Both the position numbers and the translations under genes were made by a program. Of a stretch of 15,952 nt of DNA, positions 24 through 15,897 are shown piece by piece. The DNA is from Candidatus Eiseniibacteriota bacterium (GTDB lineage: Bacteria > Arandabacterota > Arandabacteria > JAGLYR01). The notes under the pieces were generated by a model, which did no database searches, was not told the origin of the DNA, and worked only from the letters and a program-made list of their open reading frames with translations. The first letter of the stretch is position 1. The number at the start of each line of letters is the position of its first letter. The stretch is taken from positions 1-15,952 of the forward strand of contig JAGLYR010000064.1 in the NCBI GenBank assembly GCA_023132135.1, in the 5' to 3' direction.

Positions 24-968
24 GGGTTGATCACCTGGATAGACGCGATCCTCCATCTCCGCGAGAAACTTGTCCGCTTCCAGGGCGGCCATGCATCCGG
101 AGGCTGCCGCCGTCACTGCCTGCTGGTACACGGAGTCCTGCACATCGCCGCCGGCGAAGACCCCGCGGGCGGTTGTTCGTTGGCGTTCGTCCGTCTTGAC
201 GTATCCGGCTCTGTCCAGGTCCAGGTGACCCTTGAAGACCGCCGTGTTGGGTTCATGGCCGATTGCGCCAAAGAGCCCGTCGATCTCCAACTCCGATATC
301 TTCCCGGTGGGAAGATGCTTGAGCCTGATTCCGGTCACACCTTTCTCGTCATTGCCAAGGATTTCTTCGGTGACGGATTCCATGACCGGGTGGATATTGT
401 CAATGGCCTCGACGCGGGCCTGCAGGGCCGGTCCGCTTCGAAACCGGTCTCTCCGATGGATGAGATGGACGGAGGTGGCCACTTTGGCGAGAATACTCGC
501 TTCTTCCAGGGCCGAATCGCCGCCACCCACCACTGCCACACGGCGGCCCCGGTAGAAGAAAGCATCGCAGGTCGCGCAGTACGAAACGCCTTTCCCGGTG
601 AATTCGGATTCACCCTTAACACCGAGCTTCCTTGCGCTTGCGCCCGTCGCGACGATCACGGTTTTGGCCTGGTATGCTCCGGCCGCGGTTTTGACCGTCA
701 GGGGGTGGTTCCGGAAGTCCACCTCGGTTACCTGCTCCGTGATAATCCTGGTCCCGAAGCGTTCGCACTGCTTTTTCATGAGCGTCATCAGCTCGGGCCC
801 GAGAATGCCCTCGGGAAACCCGGGGAAGTTCTCCACCTTGTCGGTGATGGTCAGCTGCCCGCCCATCTGCAGTCCTGTAAAGAGCACGGGTTCGAGGTCG
901 GCGCGGGCAGCGTAGATGGCAGCCGTGTAACCGGCGGGGCCGCTGCCGATGATGATGACGGAATGCAT
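21..968 (-). CDS. trxB: Thioredoxin reductase (NADPH-dependent flavoprotein)
   Basis: This enzyme transfers electrons from NADPH through FAD and a redox disulfide to thioredoxin in the cytoplasm. The N-terminus carries the FAD dinucleotide-binding motif GSGPAG (residues 8-13). The redox-active CATC motif has its cysteines at 131 and 134, and is followed by the NADPH-binding glycine motif VVGGGDSALEEA and by HRRDRFR, the arginine pattern typical of NADPH preference. The C-terminal GGDVQDSVYQQAVTAAASGC is the second FAD-binding block. The length (315 aa) is normal for the low-molecular-weight bacterial enzyme. An in-frame TTG lies two codons upstream at 974, but the ATG at 968 is preferred because AGGAGG lies 8 nt before it. 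The gene directly follows a purine permease, and its Shine-Dalgarno overlaps that gene's stop codon, so the two are probably co-transcribed. Its stop TAG lies inside a 7-bp hairpin repeat. Assignment is firm; whether it reduces thioredoxin or a related partner cannot be read from sequence. Confidence 0.96.
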   Translation of the reverse strand: MHSVIIIGSGPAGYTAAIYAARADLEPVLFTGLQMGGQLTITDKVENFPGFPEGILGPELMTLMKKQCERFGTRIITEQVTEVDFRNHPLTVKTAAGAYQAKTVIVATGASARKLGVKGESEFTGKGVSYCATCDAFFYRGRRVAVVGGGDSALEEASILAKVATSVHLIHRRDRFRSGPALQARVEAIDNIHPVMESVTEEILGNDEKGVTGIRLKHLPTGKISELEIDGLFGAIGHEPNTAVFKGHLDLDRAGYVKTDERQRTTARGVFAGGDVQDSVYQQAVTAAASGCMAALEADKFLAEMEDRVYPGDQP

Positions 969-2439: not shown

Positions 2440-2486
2440 AAGAAACGGAACGTTGCCGATTGATATGGCAGGGGAAGGAGACAATC

Positions 2487-3656
2487 ATGAAGGCGAGACG
2501 GATCTGCAGTGGAGTCCGGTGGATGGGCGCAGTGGACTGGAATCGACGCTTGTTCGATGCACTGATCCCTCTGCCGGACGGAACGAGCTATAACGCCTAC
2601 CTCGTCAAGGGGTCGGAGAAAACCGCCCTTCTGGATACGGTCGACCCAACTATGGAAAACGTGCTGATGCAGCAGTTGAGCGATGTGGAGACCATCGACT
2701 ACATCGTCGCTCATCACGCCGAGCAGGACCACTCAGGCACGATTCCAGCCGTACTGCGGAAATACCCCCACGCCAGGCTCGTGTGCTCACAAAAAGCCAA
2801 GGCCATGCTTGTGGATCATCTTCACGTCCCGCCGGAGAACATCCAGACGGTTAAAGATGGAGAAACCCTTTCGCTGGGGAACAAGACACTGCAGTTCGTT
2901 TACACACCGTGGGTCCATTGGCCCGAGACCATGGTGACGCACCTCCCGGAGGACAAGATCCTGTTCACCTGTGATTTCTTTGGATCTCATCTGGCCACTT
3001 CCGGGCTCTACGCGGGTGATAATCCATATGTGTACGAGGCGGCGAAGCGGTACTACGGCGAGATCATGATGCCGTTTCGCAAGGCGATTCAGAACAACCT
3101 GACGAAGATCGCAGATCTCGAGTTTGACCTGATTGCTCCAAGCCATGGTCCAATCCACGACAAACCCGCCCGCATTCTCGATGCATACAGAGACTGGGTG
3201 TCGGATAGCGTGTCGAATCTTGTCGTCATCCCCTACATCTCGATGCACGGAAGTACCGAAACCATGGTGGACTATCTCGTGAGCGCATTGGCAGAGCGTG
3301 GTGTCAATGTCCAGACATTCAATCTGGAGGTAACCGACATCGGCAAACTGGCAATATCGCTGGTAGACGCTGCCACGATTGTGATCGGCACCCCGACAGT
3401 CCACATGGGGCCGCATCCGGCAGTCTTCTCCGCCACCCATTTGGCAAACGCGCTGCGGCCCAAATTGAAATATGCCGCCATCATCGGTTCGTACGGGTGG
3501 GGCACCAAGGTGGTGGAACAGATCTCCGGCCTGATTCCGAATCTCAAAGTCGAGATCCTTGGCGCGGTGCTGTGCAAGGGTCTCCCGCGGCCGGAAGATT
3601 TCACCGCTCTGGACGGTCTTGCGGACACGATCAAGGAGAAACACTCACAGGTTTGA
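2487..3656 (+). CDS. A-type flavodiiron protein (O2/NO reductase)
   Basis: Flavodiiron proteins reduce O2 to water and/or NO to N2O at a non-haem diiron site, with FMN relaying electrons, usually from rubredoxin. The N-terminal metallo-beta-lactamase-like domain (about residues 1-240) keeps every expected iron ligand: H77, E79, D81 and H82 in HHAEQDH, then H144 (WVHWPETM), D163 (FTCDFFGSH) and H220 (APSHGPIH). The C-terminal flavodoxin domain (about 245-389) has the FMN phosphate loop SMHGSTETM plus GTPTVHMGPHP and SYGWGTK. There is no extra rubredoxin or flavin-reductase domain, so this is the short class A, 389 aa. An upstream in-frame TTG at 2460 is less likely than the ATG at 2487, which has GGAAGGAG six bases before it. 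No rubredoxin gene is in the window; trxB lies on the divergent side. The phosphatase gene follows after 25 nt. The choice of O2 versus NO cannot be made from sequence. Confidence 0.95.
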   Translation: MKARRICSGVRWMGAVDWNRRLFDALIPLPDGTSYNAYLVKGSEKTALLDTVDPTMENVLMQQLSDVETIDYIVAHHAEQDHSGTIPAVLRKYPHARLVCSQKAKAMLVDHLHVPPENIQTVKDGETLSLGNKTLQFVYTPWVHWPETMVTHLPEDKILFTCDFFGSHLATSGLYAGDNPYVYEAAKRYYGEIMMPFRKAIQNNLTKIADLEFDLIAPSHGPIHDKPARILDAYRDWVSDSVSNLVVIPYISMHGSTETMVDYLVSALAERGVNVQTFNLEVTDIGKLAISLVDAATIVIGTPTVHMGPHPAVFSATHLANALRPKLKYAAIIGSYGWGTKVVEQISGLIPNLKVEILGAVLCKGLPRPEDFTALDGLADTIKEKHSQV

Positions 3657-3681
3657 ACGTCCCCTGGGGGGCGATAGCCGC

Positions 3682-6345
3682 ATGCGCTACTTTCTCACAA
3701 GGAATATTCTTCTTGCCTGGCTGGGGATGGTCATCTGGCTGGTAGCGGTCCGGGTGGGCGGGGTCCCGGCCCTCCGGTGGGGCACGGAGATTCTCTACCT
3801 GGTCTTCATCTCCTGGATGTTCTACCAGTCCAGGGAGGTGTTCCTGTGGAGTGACGAGCTTCCCATTCGCCGGAGACTGGCGGGGCTTGGGCAGATCAGT
3901 GGGCTGCTCATTGTCACGGCGGCTCTCCTCGTTGTGCAGATGAGCAAGGAAGCGGGCGAGGCCGCTGCCGCCCAGGCGGCTTCTTCTTTCGGCTCGCAGC
4001 TGGCCTTCGGCGTTCTGCAGGGTGTCCTGCTTTTGCTCATCGGTTGCGCGGCCGTGATTCTCGCCAGTCTGGTGTTTCATGAAGCGGGAACGGCCTGGAA
4101 AGTGATCTCTGGTGTCATGTGCGGGGTGCTGCTTCTCGGCAGCTGCCTGCTGTCGAGCGGCGATGGGTGGATGTGGCTCATTGTCCTGGCTCTTGTGCCG
4201 TCGTTCCGGACGTCTTGGACGGAGGACTTTTCCGCAAAGCTCAAGACAGCAATCTTCTTCTTCGGATTCGTCATCTTTTTTCTCCTTGCTCTCTTTCAGG
4301 CCAAGGTCACGTGGAGTGGGGTGGAACAGTATCTCCTTCCCGTTCTCGAGGTCGAGATGGGGCGGTTCCCGGCAGGTCTGACGCGGGCCGTCCTCCTTCT
4401 GCTCGTGGCCCACGTGGTCCTGTTCCAGCTGAAGATGATCTTCTCCCCCATGACGCGGGTCGCTGCCTTGCGCGGGGGACTCCGAACCAAGCTCATCCTT
4501 TTCTATGTGGCCGCCGGAGCCATTCCGCTGATTCTCATGGTTCTCATTCTGTCCATCGGGTTCTACATTGTGCTTGGTGGCTACCGGGCTTCACTGGCCA
4601 AGAAGCTGGCTGCGGATTATGCGGAGACGTGTCTCGACCTGAGCGAGCGGGTGGCGCGGGATCCCGGCATCCTCCGCTGGGCCCGTACGGTCCCGCTGGA
4701 GCCTGGCGCCGTTGCTACGGACCAGGAAATCTCGGAGCAGCTGTCGGCTTGGGTTGCCGAGGAGGAACTGGGTGCGGGTGTGGGGTATGTCCTGGTCCAG
4801 GTCCAGGCCGACTCCTCGAGGCTTGTGGCGCGAAGCGACGGGACGCCGGCGCAGCGCGCGCCGGGCTACTGGATCCCCGATTGGTCGGTGGACGCTTCCC
4901 GCGCCGGGTTGGTGCCCGCGCTGGAAAACGTGTGGGGCCGCGGTGTGACCGGGTTGGCTCTTGGAGACCGGCGGTTGCTGGTGGAGGTCGGCGTTGCCCT
5001 GGACCTGGTGTTTCTCGATAGGATGAAGCGTCTCACCGGGGTGGACTTCGAACTCAGCAACGGATACTGGTTGCACCTGACGGTCGCGCGGGGGCAGGTC
5101 ACAGCGCACCGGGGTGAGGCGCCTGAAGGCCTGGAGGTGAAACCGGAGTGGAGGAGCATTTCCACCATGGCTCCGGACGACCCGCGGTCCGAGAGTTTCC
5201 TCGACCGGCGGCTCTACTTCGGAGGCGCGTTCCTGCCCGAGATCGACTGGACCACTGGGGAAACGGTCGAGAAGATCGCGGGCATGCTGCTCATCCGGAC
5301 ATCCATCCGGAATCTGTACAAGGTGCTCTTTGCTCCCGAGAACACAATTAACATGTTGCTCCTGGTCGTGGTCGGGATTCTGGCCGTGCTGTTCCTCGTG
5401 ATCACCCTGGTTGCCGCGGGCGTTGGAGTGCGCGTTGTCCGTAATATCACCCGATCTGTGGGGGCTCTGAAAAAAGGAACGCAGCGGGTGCGAGCGGGGG
5501 ATTTCGACTACCGGATTCACCTGACCTCCCGGGATGAATTCGAGGATCTTGCGGAGTCGTTCAACGTGATGAGCGCCGAGGTCCGGCGGATGCTGATCGC
5601 CGTTCAGGAAAAGGAGAAACTGGAGGCGGAGCTCCGGATTGCCCGGAGCATCCAGGAGAGACTCCTTCCCCAGGAGCAACCCCGGCTTCCGGGCTTTGAA
5701 GTGCTTGGCAGCTCAATGTCCGCCCGGGAGGTGGGTGGGGACTACTTCGATTTCATTAGTTTTGATGCCGGTTCCTGGGGCGTAGCCGTGGGGGATGTCT
5801 CCGGCAAGGGTGTGACGGCTGCGCTCCTCATGGCGAATCTTCAGGCGGGCCTGAGGGCATTCGCCAGCAAACCGTCACAGATTGCGGGAGTGATGGAACG
5901 GCTCAACCTGCAGCTGCTCCGGACCACGGCCGCGGAGATGTACGCCACCTTTTTCTACGGGGTTCTGGATAGCAGGACCCGGGTTTTTTCTTTTTCGAAC
6001 GCGGGGCACAATCCCCCTCTACTGGTACGGGCCAACGGCACGACCGAGCTTCTGGACGCCGGGGGGCTTCCCCTGGGGATGATGGAAGGATTCCCGTACG
6101 AGGAGGCGAAGGTGGAGATGGCCCCCGGCGACCTCCTGGTCCTGTACACCGATGGCGTGACAGAGGCGGAGAATGCCCAGGGCGACCAGCTGGGGGACGA
6201 TGGTTTCCTGGAGGTCGTAGTGTCCTCGAGAGGCGAGGGCGTCCAGGCAGTCCAGGAACGGATTCACGAGGCGGTCAGGGAGTTCGCCGCGGGGCATGAG
6301 CAGTCGGATGACCTGACGCTGGTCATCGTGAAATGTACCGTGTAG
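3682..6345 (+). CDS. Membrane-anchored PP2C/SpoIIE phosphatase with HAMP
   Basis: This is an 887-aa sensor phosphatase of the RsbU/SpoIIE (PPM) family. Such enzymes usually dephosphorylate anti-sigma antagonists in partner-switching pathways. Roughly nine hydrophobic segments fill residues 1-310, the last (LRTKLILFYVAAGAIPLILM onward) being reminiscent of NtrY-type sensors. A soluble, presumably periplasmic stretch covers about 315-550 and matches nothing I recognise. A further TM segment lies at about 555-585, then HAMP (about 585-637, ending DEFEDLAESFNVM), a short helical linker (EKEKLEAELRIARSIQERLLP), and the catalytic domain to the C-terminus. The metal-binding aspartates are present: D687 in GGDYFD, D705 in GDVSGKG, D824 in YTDGVTEA and D876/D877 in SDDLTL. 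The ATG at 3682 is chosen because homology-like hydrophobic sequence starts there; the upstream in-frame extension overlaps the flavodiiron gene. Only a weak G-rich ribosome site precedes it. No anti-sigma kinase or STAS partner lies in the window. Confidence 0.93.
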   Translation: MRYFLTRNILLAWLGMVIWLVAVRVGGVPALRWGTEILYLVFISWMFYQSREVFLWSDELPIRRRLAGLGQISGLLIVTAALLVVQMSKEAGEAAAAQAASSFGSQLAFGVLQGVLLLLIGCAAVILASLVFHEAGTAWKVISGVMCGVLLLGSCLLSSGDGWMWLIVLALVPSFRTSWTEDFSAKLKTAIFFFGFVIFFLLALFQAKVTWSGVEQYLLPVLEVEMGRFPAGLTRAVLLLLVAHVVLFQLKMIFSPMTRVAALRGGLRTKLILFYVAAGAIPLILMVLILSIGFYIVLGGYRASLAKKLAADYAETCLDLSERVARDPGILRWARTVPLEPGAVATDQEISEQLSAWVAEEELGAGVGYVLVQVQADSSRLVARSDGTPAQRAPGYWIPDWSVDASRAGLVPALENVWGRGVTGLALGDRRLLVEVGVALDLVFLDRMKRLTGVDFELSNGYWLHLTVARGQVTAHRGEAPEGLEVKPEWRSISTMAPDDPRSESFLDRRLYFGGAFLPEIDWTTGETVEKIAGMLLIRTSIRNLYKVLFAPENTINMLLLVVVGILAVLFLVITLVAAGVGVRVVRNITRSVGALKKGTQRVRAGDFDYRIHLTSRDEFEDLAESFNVMSAEVRRMLIAVQEKEKLEAELRIARSIQERLLPQEQPRLPGFEVLGSSMSAREVGGDYFDFISFDAGSWGVAVGDVSGKGVTAALLMANLQAGLRAFASKPSQIAGVMERLNLQLLRTTAAEMYATFFYGVLDSRTRVFSFSNAGHNPPLLVRANGTTELLDAGGLPLGMMEGFPYEEAKVEMAPGDLLVLYTDGVTEAENAQGDQLGDDGFLEVVVSSRGEGVQAVQERIHEAVREFAAGHEQSDDLTLVIVKCTV

Positions 6346-11657: not shown

Positions 11658-13862
11658 ATGCGGAAATCCTCCTCAGGCTATCGTGCTCTGATCGGTGTGC
11701 TCATCGGGATTGCGGCCGCGGTCGCGGTCATTATCCTCACCGAGCACCTTTTCCTCAAGTCCACTTTCGATGGGTTCGAAGCAGGGAGTTACGACCTCCG
11801 TTTCCGGTACCGGGCCGAGCGGTTCAAGATCCACTCTATCGATGACGTCATCATCATCGATATTGATCAGCGCAGTCTCTACAATCTGGGGCGCATCTAC
11901 CAGTGGCCCCGATGGTACCACGCACAGGTGATAGACTTCGTGGCCTCCGGCGGGGCCAGCGCCATTGGCTTCGACATTATCTTCGACCCGGACCGCGAGC
12001 GCACGGCCGACGATCTCCTTATCGAATCCACCCGTGCCGCAGGTATTGTCCATCATGCGATTTCCCTCTCCCCGGCCGATTCCCTCAACTGGCTCCCACG
12101 GATGGAATCGGAGCCGGAGGGCCTGGAAGTCGGATCCCGCGTCTATGACTTCCCGCCTCAGGTACGAGAGCATTTCCTGACCCTCGAACGATTCGACAAT
12201 GAATTGGTCGACTTGCTGAATGCCTCCCGGGGTACTGGTTTTGTCAATGTTGAGCCCGATCCGGACGGGGTGGTTCGCCGGATGAGGCTCTTCATCAATT
12301 TCAATGATCACACCTACCCGAGTCTGGGTTTCGGAATTGCACTGGCTCGGCTGGGAGTCGATCCAGCCGACCTGGAAGTCAACCCCGGCAAGGGTGTTTC
12401 GTTCTGGGCGACGGACCCCGGCGATTCGGTGAGGACGCGGTACTGCATCCCGATCGACGACGAAGGCCGGGTGTACATCGATTACCAGGGCAAGTTCAAC
12501 ACGTTCCGCTACATTCCATACTACGACGTTTACAAGAAGCGGTTGCCGGCGGAGATCTTCAAAGACAAGATCGTGCTGGTGGGGTCCAGCCTTCACGCTC
12601 TGGCGGATCTCAAATCCGTCCCGGTTCAGGAGCTGTTCCCGGGAGTGGAGATTCAGGCCAACCTCATCTACAGCATCCTTCACCGGAGCTCTGTCCGGGT
12701 AGTGGGTGGGGTGGGGTCGGTGGCTCTCGTCCTGGGGTTGGGTCTGTTGGTGGGCGTTGTGTGCCTGACCGAGCGGTTCCGCTCCCTGATCGTGTCGAGT
12801 TTGTTCTTGACGGTGGTTATGACCGGGTACATCCTGATTGCCTTCAGGCTTTTCCTCGGGTGGAGTATCCCGTCTCTGGGTATTCTCGGGGAGCCGGGAA
12901 TGACCATCCCGATGGTGAGACCGCTGGTCACGATGGGCCTCGCCTTCCTGATGGTGGTCAGCTACCGGTACCAGACGGAGGAACGCGCCAAGAGGCAAAT
13001 GAGGGGCTACTTCGCCCAGTACGTCGATGAGAAAGTGGTCGACGAGATCACGCGCTCGCCGGGAAAAATCCGGTTGGGCGGTGAGAAGCGGGAGGTGACC
13101 CTCCTGTTTTCCGACATTCGCTATTTCACGACCATGTCGGAGAGGATGCCTCCAGAGGAAGTGGCCCGGTTTCTAAACAGATATCTGACCGTCATGACCA
13201 GCATCGTCACGCACCATGGCGGGATGCTGGACAAGTACATTGGTGATGCCATAGTTGCGGTGTTCGGCGCCCCGCTGCCCAACCCTAATCATGCGAGGGA
13301 TGCCTGCCTGGCCGGAGTGGAGATGATCGAGAAGCTGGAAGAGCTCCGGGACGGGGAGGAGCCTCCGTGGAACCGTCTCAACATTGGAATTGGAATCAAC
13401 ACGGGGGAAGCCACCGTCGGCAATATGGGGTCGGACTACCTGTTTGACTATACCGCGATCGGCGACAATGTGAATCTGGCTTCCCGGCTGGAAGGACTGA
13501 ACAAGTTCTACGAGACGCAGGTGCTTGTCAGCGAGCGGACCTACCGCTCTGCCGGCGAGGGGATTAGTGCCCGCGAACTGGACTTGATTGCGGTCAAGGG
13601 GCGCCAGGCCAGCGTGCGGGTTTACCAGCTGCTGGCGGGGAAACGGACAAGAGAGGGAACCGGGGCCACCGCGTCGATGTTCCACAATGGTCTGGAGGCA
13701 TACCGGCGCAGGGAGTGGGACATAGCGGTTTCTGAATTCGAGAAGGTCCTGGACATCGAAGGTGGCGGACCCTCGCGGGTTCTCTTCAGCCGGTGCCGGG
13801 TGTTCAGGGAGAATCCTCCGGAGGACGACTGGGATGGCAGCTGGAGGATGGACGAGAAATAG
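11658..13862 (+). CDS. CHASE2-domain adenylate cyclase (class III)
   Basis: This is a membrane sensor that likely makes cAMP from ATP. After one N-terminal TM (about residues 12-30), the extracytoplasmic CHASE2 domain spans about 35-340 (YDLRFRYRAERF, VIIIDIDQRSL, FVASGGASAIGFDIIFD, VPVQELFPGVEIQANLIYSIL). Three TM helices follow (about 350-445), then a short linker and the cyclase domain (about 470-655). All class III catalytic residues are seen: metal-binding D486 (FSDIRYF) and D530 (YIGDAIVAVFG), adenine-selecting K526 and D597 (FDYTAIGD), and transition-state N606 and R610 (NLASRLEG). The C-terminal AYRRREWDIAVSEFEKVLDIE resembles one TPR-like helix pair. I prefer the ATG at 11658, 8 nt after AGGTGG; GTG 11646 and ATG 11652 are in frame but badly spaced. 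The next gene, an envelope FecR/barrel protein, begins 37 nt after the stop. Adenylate specificity is inferred from K526/D597. Confidence 0.94.
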   Translation: MRKSSSGYRALIGVLIGIAAAVAVIILTEHLFLKSTFDGFEAGSYDLRFRYRAERFKIHSIDDVIIIDIDQRSLYNLGRIYQWPRWYHAQVIDFVASGGASAIGFDIIFDPDRERTADDLLIESTRAAGIVHHAISLSPADSLNWLPRMESEPEGLEVGSRVYDFPPQVREHFLTLERFDNELVDLLNASRGTGFVNVEPDPDGVVRRMRLFINFNDHTYPSLGFGIALARLGVDPADLEVNPGKGVSFWATDPGDSVRTRYCIPIDDEGRVYIDYQGKFNTFRYIPYYDVYKKRLPAEIFKDKIVLVGSSLHALADLKSVPVQELFPGVEIQANLIYSILHRSSVRVVGGVGSVALVLGLGLLVGVVCLTERFRSLIVSSLFLTVVMTGYILIAFRLFLGWSIPSLGILGEPGMTIPMVRPLVTMGLAFLMVVSYRYQTEERAKRQMRGYFAQYVDEKVVDEITRSPGKIRLGGEKREVTLLFSDIRYFTTMSERMPPEEVARFLNRYLTVMTSIVTHHGGMLDKYIGDAIVAVFGAPLPNPNHARDACLAGVEMIEKLEELRDGEEPPWNRLNIGIGINTGEATVGNMGSDYLFDYTAIGDNVNLASRLEGLNKFYETQVLVSERTYRSAGEGISARELDLIAVKGRQASVRVYQLLAGKRTREGTGATASMFHNGLEAYRRREWDIAVSEFEKVLDIEGGGPSRVLFSRCRVFRENPPEDDWDGSWRMDEK

Positions 13863-13899
13863 CAGACACGTGGGACTCACGCTACCGGGGAGGCGTACA

Positions 13900-15897
13900 A
13901 TGCGGATGCTCATGATGTGGTCGTTGTTGCTCGTGTGTGGGCTGGTCACAGTCTCGACGGCGCATGCGGCCCGGACGGCGACGGTGGAATTCTACATAGG
14001 GGATCTGCACTACGCTGTTGCGCCGGACACGGTTTTCGCCCGGACGACGCTTGGTCAGGCACTTGACGAGGGCATGTTCCTCAGGACCGGGTCGGAATCC
14101 CGGGCCGAGGTCCGGTTGGATGACGGCACTCTTCTCCGGATGCAGGAGAATACCCTGATCCAGCTCTATACGATGGTTCCCGACACGCTGCAGGCGGCGG
14201 TGACAGCCGTGGGACTGGAGCAGGGTTCCCTCTACGTGATCAAGGGCCGCGTTCTGACAGGCGACGAGTTCCAGGTTCGCACACCCATCGCCGTGGCGGC
14301 CATCCGGGGGACCGAGTTCATGGACACCTTCCGGGCCGGCGCCAACGAGGTGCAGGTTCTGAGGGGCGAGGTCGATTTCCGGTCGCTCATCGACGGGCGC
14401 ACAATCCGGATCCTGCGGGGCCAGGCAGCCCGGATCAAGGGCGCATTCGCGCCTGCCCTGAGGGAACTGACGAACCAGGAGCTGAGTGATCTCCTGAGCG
14501 CATCGGAAACCGAGTCGTTCCAGCAGGAGAAACCTCCTGTGGAACCGGAAGGCGGCCCCGTAGAGGGCGAAGGCGGAGAAGGCGAGACGGGTGAAGAGAC
14601 GGGCAAGGTGGAGGCCCCGGAGCGGTACGAATCCCGCACGGGAAAGGCCGGGAAGAGCTATGGCGCCAGCATTGGGGCGGTTGTGATCGACGGCCAACTG
14701 GTTAATATGATTGGGTTCCGCCCCGAATTCACCATTGGCAAGGTGGGAATTGGTCTCGATCTGTCTCTGTATCTGGATGCGGACGGGGATATCCTCGATC
14801 GGTACTGGGACGATCCCCAGGACTACATCGACAAGATCTATTACCTGCGGTACGCACAGAAGGGAGAACCTTTCTACCTCCGGGCGGGAGCGCTCGAGGA
14901 GGTCTGCCTCGGCTATGGCCTGATCATGAGAGACTACTCCAATATCATGGAGTATCCGAGCACCATCCGGGTGGGAGCGGAACTGGGCCTCAACCGGAAC
15001 CAGTTTGTCCTGGAAGCCATGTTTGCCAACTTCCGGGAGCTCGATGAGCCCGGTGTGTTCGGTGGACGGCTGGCGTATCGCCCGCTGGTCATGAGCGACC
15101 TGCCGTTGCTCAAGAACCTGGAGGTCGGCGCAATTGCCGTGATGGACGGCAACCAGTATGCAGCGTTGGAGGATGGTCTGGGAGAGGAGTTGCCGGATTC
15201 GTCATACCACGACCGGGGGGCGTTGGTCTGGGGATTGGACGCGGGAATGCCGCTCCTGCGGGGCGGCTTCGTGGACATCGATCTGTACGCACAGTTTGCC
15301 CAGATTAACGAATACGGTCATGGTCTCACAATCCCGGGGTTCCGGGCGTCCGCCGGACCGCTCAGGGCTGAGTTCGAGTATTGCATCTTCGGCAAGCAGT
15401 TTGTCTCAGACTATTTCAACCGGACGTACGATATCGAGCGGGCCCGGCGGAATCCCGCTGTGCCGGATCCCTACGCAGAGAAGGGATATATTACCAAGAA
15501 AGATTTCCTGGAGGATCCCCAGTTCCAGGAGAGCAAGCAAGGTTGGTACGGCGGTCTGGGCCTCAACCTGCTGAACCTCCTCGACATCTGGGGAAGCATT
15601 CAGCTCCTTGGCTCGGGAGATACGGCCGACGAGTCCGGCTATCTTGAAGGCGTTCTGGATACCTCGTGGATCCCGCGGATCTCGCATCTCTCGGCTTATG
15701 CCCAGCAGACCCATGTCAGGGATCTGTTTGAGTTCGAGAGAGGGCCTTCGACTGCCTATGGAGTCAACCTGGGCTACGAAATCGCTCCCGGAGCGTCCAT
15801 CATCGTGGGCATGCGGGGAACCTACGCCGACACCGATGGCGACGGCGTGTTCGAATTGGTGCGGACAACACAGATCGAGACAATGGTGACTTTCTAG
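13900..15897 (+). CDS. FecR-domain protein fused to an outer-membrane beta-barrel
   Basis: This 665-aa exported protein has a cleavable signal peptide (residues 1-23, ending THA before ARTATVEF). A FecR-type beta domain lies at about 27-190, with GMFLRTGSESRAEVRLDDGTLLRMQENTLIQL and VRTPIAVAAIRGTEFMDTF as its recognisable blocks. An acidic Gly/Glu/Pro linker covers about 210-240. The C-terminal region from about 250 has alternating amphipathic strands rich in Tyr and Gly, ends in ETMVTF, and carries the terminal Phe typical of BAM-inserted outer-membrane barrels. FecR domains are usually the periplasmic part of sigma-factor regulators; here there is no cytoplasmic or TM region, so a structural or ligand-binding periplasmic role is more likely. 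The ATG at 13900 has GGGGAGG six bases upstream; a longer in-frame extension overlaps the cyclase and lacks a signal peptide. I do not recognise the barrel family. Confidence 0.85.
   Translation: MRMLMMWSLLLVCGLVTVSTAHAARTATVEFYIGDLHYAVAPDTVFARTTLGQALDEGMFLRTGSESRAEVRLDDGTLLRMQENTLIQLYTMVPDTLQAAVTAVGLEQGSLYVIKGRVLTGDEFQVRTPIAVAAIRGTEFMDTFRAGANEVQVLRGEVDFRSLIDGRTIRILRGQAARIKGAFAPALRELTNQELSDLLSASETESFQQEKPPVEPEGGPVEGEGGEGETGEETGKVEAPERYESRTGKAGKSYGASIGAVVIDGQLVNMIGFRPEFTIGKVGIGLDLSLYLDADGDILDRYWDDPQDYIDKIYYLRYAQKGEPFYLRAGALEEVCLGYGLIMRDYSNIMEYPSTIRVGAELGLNRNQFVLEAMFANFRELDEPGVFGGRLAYRPLVMSDLPLLKNLEVGAIAVMDGNQYAALEDGLGEELPDSSYHDRGALVWGLDAGMPLLRGGFVDIDLYAQFAQINEYGHGLTIPGFRASAGPLRAEFEYCIFGKQFVSDYFNRTYDIERARRNPAVPDPYAEKGYITKKDFLEDPQFQESKQGWYGGLGLNLLNLLDIWGSIQLLGSGDTADESGYLEGVLDTSWIPRISHLSAYAQQTHVRDLFEFERGPSTAYGVNLGYEIAPGASIIVGMRGTYADTDGDGVFELVRTTQIETMVTF

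Follow-up and report, generated by a model that had tools for sequence, protein, structure and literature searches.

Two neighbouring genes of a Candidatus Eiseniibacteriota bacterium encode an adenylate cyclase with a CHASE2 domain (P0001) and a FecR-domain protein with a putative outer-membrane barrel (P0002). Their arrangement raises the question of whether the state of an outer-membrane protein is read by an inner-membrane cyclase and converted into cAMP. The pair lies near the end of the window, the whole stretch of 15,952 nucleotides analysed here, and its features are collected in Table 1.

The gene pair and its products

The earlier note on this DNA described a CHASE2 cyclase gene followed after 37 nt by a FecR/barrel gene. 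Pfam confirms the pair (PF05226, PF00211 and PF04773) and the spacing is exact, with the P0001 stop codon at 13860-13862, the P0002 ATG at 13900 and a GGGGAGG motif just 5' of this ATG. The contig ends 55 nt 3' of the FecR-barrel gene, cutting off the downstream side of the pair. The genome (G000) has two CHASE2 genes and a single FecR gene; the second CHASE2 protein (L247 / L002, G000:C86:27998-28972) is fused to a SpoIIE phosphatase and has no FecR gene nearby. Elsewhere in the window, a multi-TM HAMP-SpoIIE phosphatase of 890 residues (3673-6345) adjoins a flavodiiron-like protein (2460-3656).

Table 1. Features of the cyclase and FecR-barrel genes (nucleotide positions of the window, or residues of the protein)
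Feature	Position	Strand	Basis
CHASE2-class III adenylate cyclase P0001, 734 aa	11658..13862	+	Pfam, AlphaFold2, fold match
P0001 TM1	aa 5-29		AlphaFold2 helices, our reading
P0001 periplasmic CHASE2	about aa 30-350		AlphaFold2 model
P0001 three later TM helices	about aa 351-369, 377-400, 420-453		our reading of model helices
P0001 cyclase domain	aa 472-660, then C-terminal helices		model
P0001 catalytic residues D486, K526, D530, T599, N606, R610	13113..13487	+	read from sequence
Intergenic gap, 37 nt, with GGGGAGG ribosome-binding site	13863..13899	+	sequence
FecR-barrel protein P0002, 665 aa	13900..15897	+	Pfam FecR; full-length homologue in G153; barrel-only homologues
P0002 signal peptide	about aa 1-24		
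P0002 FecR domain core, equivalent to PupR CJM subdomain (aa 56-180)	14065..14439	+	AlphaFold2, structure match
P0002 linker, acidic, Pro/Gly/Glu-rich	about aa 200-245		
P0002 C-terminal OM-barrel-like region, ends in Phe	aa 250-665		

P0001 matches essentially the whole CHASE2 profile (PF05226, residues 24-365, E 4.6e-52) and, further on, Guanylate_cyc (PF00211, residues 477-658, E 3.3e-24). Its AlphaFold2 model has a mean pLDDT of 90.9 and places transmembrane helices on both sides of CHASE2; because the domain lies between TM1 and the three later helices, it is predicted to be periplasmic, and the last of these helices continues into a signalling helix. The model thus bears out the proposed inner-membrane cyclase with an extracytoplasmic sensor domain, and in place of the 'empty sensor slot' ascribed to it we find a complete, confidently folded CHASE2 domain. 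Structure searches with the full model returned cyclases only, with a match to Pseudomonas aeruginosa CyaB (3r5g, Z 26.6) that covers the cyclase and not CHASE2. The class III cyclase domain retains an intact set of six catalytic residues, of which five are invariant across 50 CHASE2 cyclases and T599 is nearly so. We take D486 and D530 to be the metal ligands, K526 and T599 to select adenine (class IIIb type), and N606 and R610 to serve the transition state. With the metal Asp pair, the adenine-selecting Lys/Thr and the transition-state Asn/Arg all present, P0001 should, judging from its sequence, make cAMP.

The only Pfam domain of P0002 is FecR (PF04773, residues 61-158, E 8.6e-15). Sequence comparison found no solved structure that matches the protein, and residues 25-180 are confidently folded by AlphaFold2, the FecR core at a pLDDT of about 95. 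By structure comparison, this core superimposes on residues 111-230 of PupR (6ovk_R; Z 16.6, 1.7 Å over 118 residues). PupR consists in this region of a juxtamembrane CJM subdomain (residues 110-238) and an STN subdomain (residues 250-324); its contact with the signalling domain of the receptor is made by the linker together with C-terminal elements, and binding requires both subdomains (PMC7186176). The match to PupR ends at residue 230 and Pfam detects no STN domain in P0002, so the model indicates a protein that keeps the piece of PupR beside the inner membrane and is devoid of the STN part. The N-terminal cytoplasmic anti-sigma domain and transmembrane helix of classical FecR regulators are also absent, since P0002 begins with a signal peptide and carries no further Pfam domain. 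The missing anti-sigma part had been recognised from the start; the analogy drawn with classical FecR systems is not supported, as the piece retained is the CJM subdomain and the barrel-facing STN part is gone (PMC7186176). We infer, as a refinement of the earlier model, that a contact part of the STN type is dispensable in P0002 because its barrel is covalently attached.

Pfam has no entry for the family of the C-terminal half of P0002. This family stands alone in G058 (best segment 52% identical), G024, G045, G052 and G046 and is fused to FecR in the window, G024, G085, G153 and G154. Its description as an outer-membrane barrel has some support. The family profile displays alternating hydrophobicity, the signal of amphipathic strands (z = 3.5), and most members, P0002 included, end in Phe; on the other side, the single-sequence strand test gives z = 1.0 for P0002, a crude test that is uninformative for several barrels including this one, and AlphaFold2, run with FecR relatives only, folded the FecR domain and left the barrel half unfolded. 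An outer-membrane barrel is the best reading of this half, short of proof.

Recurrence of FecR genes beside CHASE2 genes

The earlier note named recurrent adjacency as a support for its model. In an unbiased census, the surroundings of CHASE2 matches were scanned for FecR in 154 diverse genomes, nearly all from different families. CHASE2 is present in 78 of these genomes, in 144 ORFs. Matches to our own FecR model below 60 bits, several of which Pfam does not confirm, were left out. A FecR gene adjoins 19 of the 144 CHASE2 ORFs and lies within three genes of 33; counted by position, FecR occupies 19 of 281 neighbouring positions versus 0 of 323 at a distance of 4-5 genes (p=3e-7). An independent set, the CHASE2-cyclases of named genomes, gives FecR adjacent to 20 of 86 ORFs (20 of 165 adjacent positions versus 2 of 225, p=1.5e-6). 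These p-values ignore shared ancestry; the linkage was also gained and lost often on a tree of 220 CHASE2 domains (43 changes versus 49.9 in shuffles). Across many families the linkage of FecR with CHASE2 departs strongly from randomness, and the recurrent adjacency that the earlier note asked for is borne out.

The pairs vary in composition. Among adjacent same-strand pairs FecR comes first in 29 and CHASE2 in 4, so that the cyclase-first order of the window is the minority form; in annotated plasmid relatives (Paracoccus, Shinella and two Ruegeria), the FecR gene is directly upstream in all four inspected. The barrel is optional, as the FecR proteins adjacent to CHASE2 in the census are mostly 200-415 residues long and probably barrel-less. 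According to motifs or profiles, the CHASE2 outputs beside FecR are cyclases, SpoIIE phosphatases and one kinase. No fusion of FecR and CHASE2 was found among the ORFs searched, and FecR is missing from the three-gene surroundings of about three quarters of CHASE2 genes. As separate observations, the gene ahead of a CHASE2-SpoIIE gene in the relative G001 encodes a weakly FecR-like protein for which Pfam gives no confirmation, and the FecR/CHASE2-cyclase pair of a Shinella plasmid (L007, 7011-11977) is found immediately upstream of a cluster for NHLP bacteriocin export.

FecR-barrels homologous to P0002 along its length adjoin CHASE2-cyclases in G153 (L170), G154 (L317) and G085 (L166). The first two are sister genera of one family, distinct from that of the window, and the last is a third lineage; the G153 homologue is 27% identical over 621 residues. 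A different order, in which FecR (about 225 residues) is followed by a secreted protein of ~800 residues ending in Phe and then by the CHASE2-cyclase, occurs in five genomes of five different families (L158, L187, L197, L213 and L222), and in all of these except L158 a secreted protein of 350-400 residues also precedes FecR. The ~800-residue proteins have no Pfam domain and may be barrels; what is fused in P0002 may be split in these loci.

Proposed coupling across the envelope and rival explanations

We consider it probable that the two genes form a trans-envelope receptor of the NsrA/CyaK type, in which signals run from barrel to FecR to CHASE2 to cAMP. The C-terminal half of P0002, seated in the outer membrane, would take up a surface or envelope signal, presumably a ligand. 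Tied to the barrel by the flexible acidic linker, the FecR domain would reside in the periplasm and pass the state of the barrel on to CHASE2, by what we infer to be direct contact and with a stimulating or inhibiting effect on the inner-membrane cyclase. Under CHASE2 control, P0001 would then make cAMP inside the cell for a presumed receptor. The trans-envelope model of the earlier note survives in this form, sustained by the recurrent linkage and by the experimental precedent of NsrA/CyaK, in which an outer-membrane protein controls a CHASE2 cyclase (PMC7529298, PMC13001267); it is not new, and its classical-FecR analogy is without support.

Even with the threshold relaxed to E 10, no cNMP-binding domain (PF00027) came up in G000, a genome that is 96% complete, and a control search was positive in 10-12 of 14 genomes. 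Either the gene for the cAMP receptor falls in the missing few percent of the genome, or a different receptor is used. In its genome, and among the eight genomes of the phylum that were searched, P0001 is the sole class III cyclase; the relative G001 has PF00027 and no class III cyclase.

The two proteins could also serve one pathway without touching each other, with the FecR-barrel protein as a regulated target or co-promoter component of the envelope (a porin, for example) and CHASE2 sensing a periplasmic ligand of its own. The Sinorhizobium meliloti FecR-domain protein SMc02177 fits such a role, being encoded by a gene that the cAMP regulator Clr targets and being dispensable for signal perception (PMC5498481), as do the lability of the linkage and the many CHASE2 genes that have no FecR gene nearby. 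Yet NsrA, described as an outer-membrane β-barrel receptor of S. meliloti, is needed for signal-dependent activation through CyaK, upstream of it in signal perception (PMC7529298, PMC13001267); moreover, the FecR partners vary in everything except the FecR domain, the pattern expected of a shared connector. We regard this arrangement as unlikely. Still less probable, in our view, is that FecR is an attachment domain for the envelope or cell wall, CHASE2 senses strain or the state of the wall, and the barrel is merely an anchor. The Burkholderia partner of a CHASE2 kinase is indeed a peptidoglycan-binding LysM-FecR protein (PMC5192318) and many of the FecR proteins beside CHASE2 are small and without a barrel, but Pfam finds no peptidoglycan-binding domain in P0002, and NsrA shows a response when a protein ligand is added (PMC7529298).

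That the genes are neighbours by coincidence, with no functional link, seems very improbable. The nearest genomes of the same phylum, which lack the pair and have neither a cyclase nor a P0002 match, would agree with it. Against it, the only FecR gene of the genome stands beside one of its two CHASE2 genes, which makes chance adjacency unlikely; FecR is also in strong excess beside CHASE2 elsewhere, and homologous FecR-barrels adjoin CHASE2-cyclases in unrelated families.

Beyond the receptor proposed for this locus, FecR-CHASE2 might be a general trans-envelope coupling unit in many phyla, with a cAMP receptor outside the PF00027 class in this organism; we hold this wider reading possible, though on balance doubtful. 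If true, the FecR fold would be the constant connector, with the outer part (fused barrel, separate secreted or barrel protein, TPR-barrel, LysM or small periplasmic protein) and the inner output (cyclase, SpoIIE phosphatase or kinase) swapped around it. CHASE2 sensor domains are common in bacteria, and for the Burkholderia operon the factors recognised by its CHASE2 domains are not known, according to its authors (PMC5192318). Were FecR proteins the usual partners, the question of what CHASE2 senses would become testable; for many CHASE2 receptors the input may then be the state of a FecR-tagged protein of the outer envelope and not a free ligand.

Comparison with known systems

The closest counterpart is the NsrA-CyaK (CyaD1/D2)-Clr system of S. 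meliloti, where the gene of a FecR-domain protein, there an outer-membrane β-barrel, likewise adjoins that of a CHASE2 class III cyclase; at the window the two genes are 37 nt apart on the same strand. We identified the NsrA ORF on pSymB, whose record is without annotation, by its length and its location ahead of cyaK. It encodes 1219 residues with PF04773 (2.3e-15), TPRs and a C-terminal Phe, and overlaps cyaK, whose product contains PF05226 and PF00211; the length fits the published NsrA barrel, given as residues 600-1200. Only the FecR domain aligns between NsrA and P0002, since NsrA has TPR repeats and a different barrel. Furthermore, the FecR gene comes first in S. meliloti and the cyclase gene in the window, and S. 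meliloti has the cAMP receptor Clr, whereas the window genome appears to be without one.

The CHASE2 cyclase genes of Campylobacterota mostly lie in clusters with the gene of a FecR outer-membrane protein, and the two proteins have been proposed to act in one horizontally spread pathway (PMC9239204). That cluster includes a cAMP phosphodiesterase and a TPR gene, neither of which is seen beside the window pair, whose downstream side is truncated. The Burkholderia BiofilmReg operon also places a FecR protein gene beside a CHASE2 receptor gene (PMC5192318), but with a LysM protein and a histidine kinase output in place of the barrel and cyclase. The classical cell-surface signalling systems FecA-FecR-FecI and PupB-PupR share with the model proposed for the window pair a FecR-fold domain between an outer-membrane protein and an inner-membrane signal output; they differ in that FecR is fused to an inner-membrane protein, and to the barrel in the window, where P0002 has neither an anti-sigma domain nor an STN subdomain and no TonB-dependent receptor is present. 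In magnetotactic bacteria, a gene for a CHASE2 cyclase follows that of MtxA (PMC4439547). In our data, CHASE2 is adjoined by an MtxA-like protein that carries DUF7354 (L267, 7231-8259), and a true FecR protein (L213, 2721-3389) is also matched by DUF7354; to judge from these profile matches, DUF7354 may be a FecR relative, linking MtxA to the FecR-CHASE2 module.

The trans-envelope cyclase switch is not new, because publications on S. meliloti and on Campylobacterota (PMC9239204) already describe the arrangement. The census goes beyond these cases and that of Burkholderia by reaching many unrelated families, and it suggests compact systems for testing. Given the published NsrA/CyaK, Campylobacterota and Burkholderia examples, the window pair is very likely a further example of the NsrA/CyaK receptor type known from Sinorhizobium meliloti.
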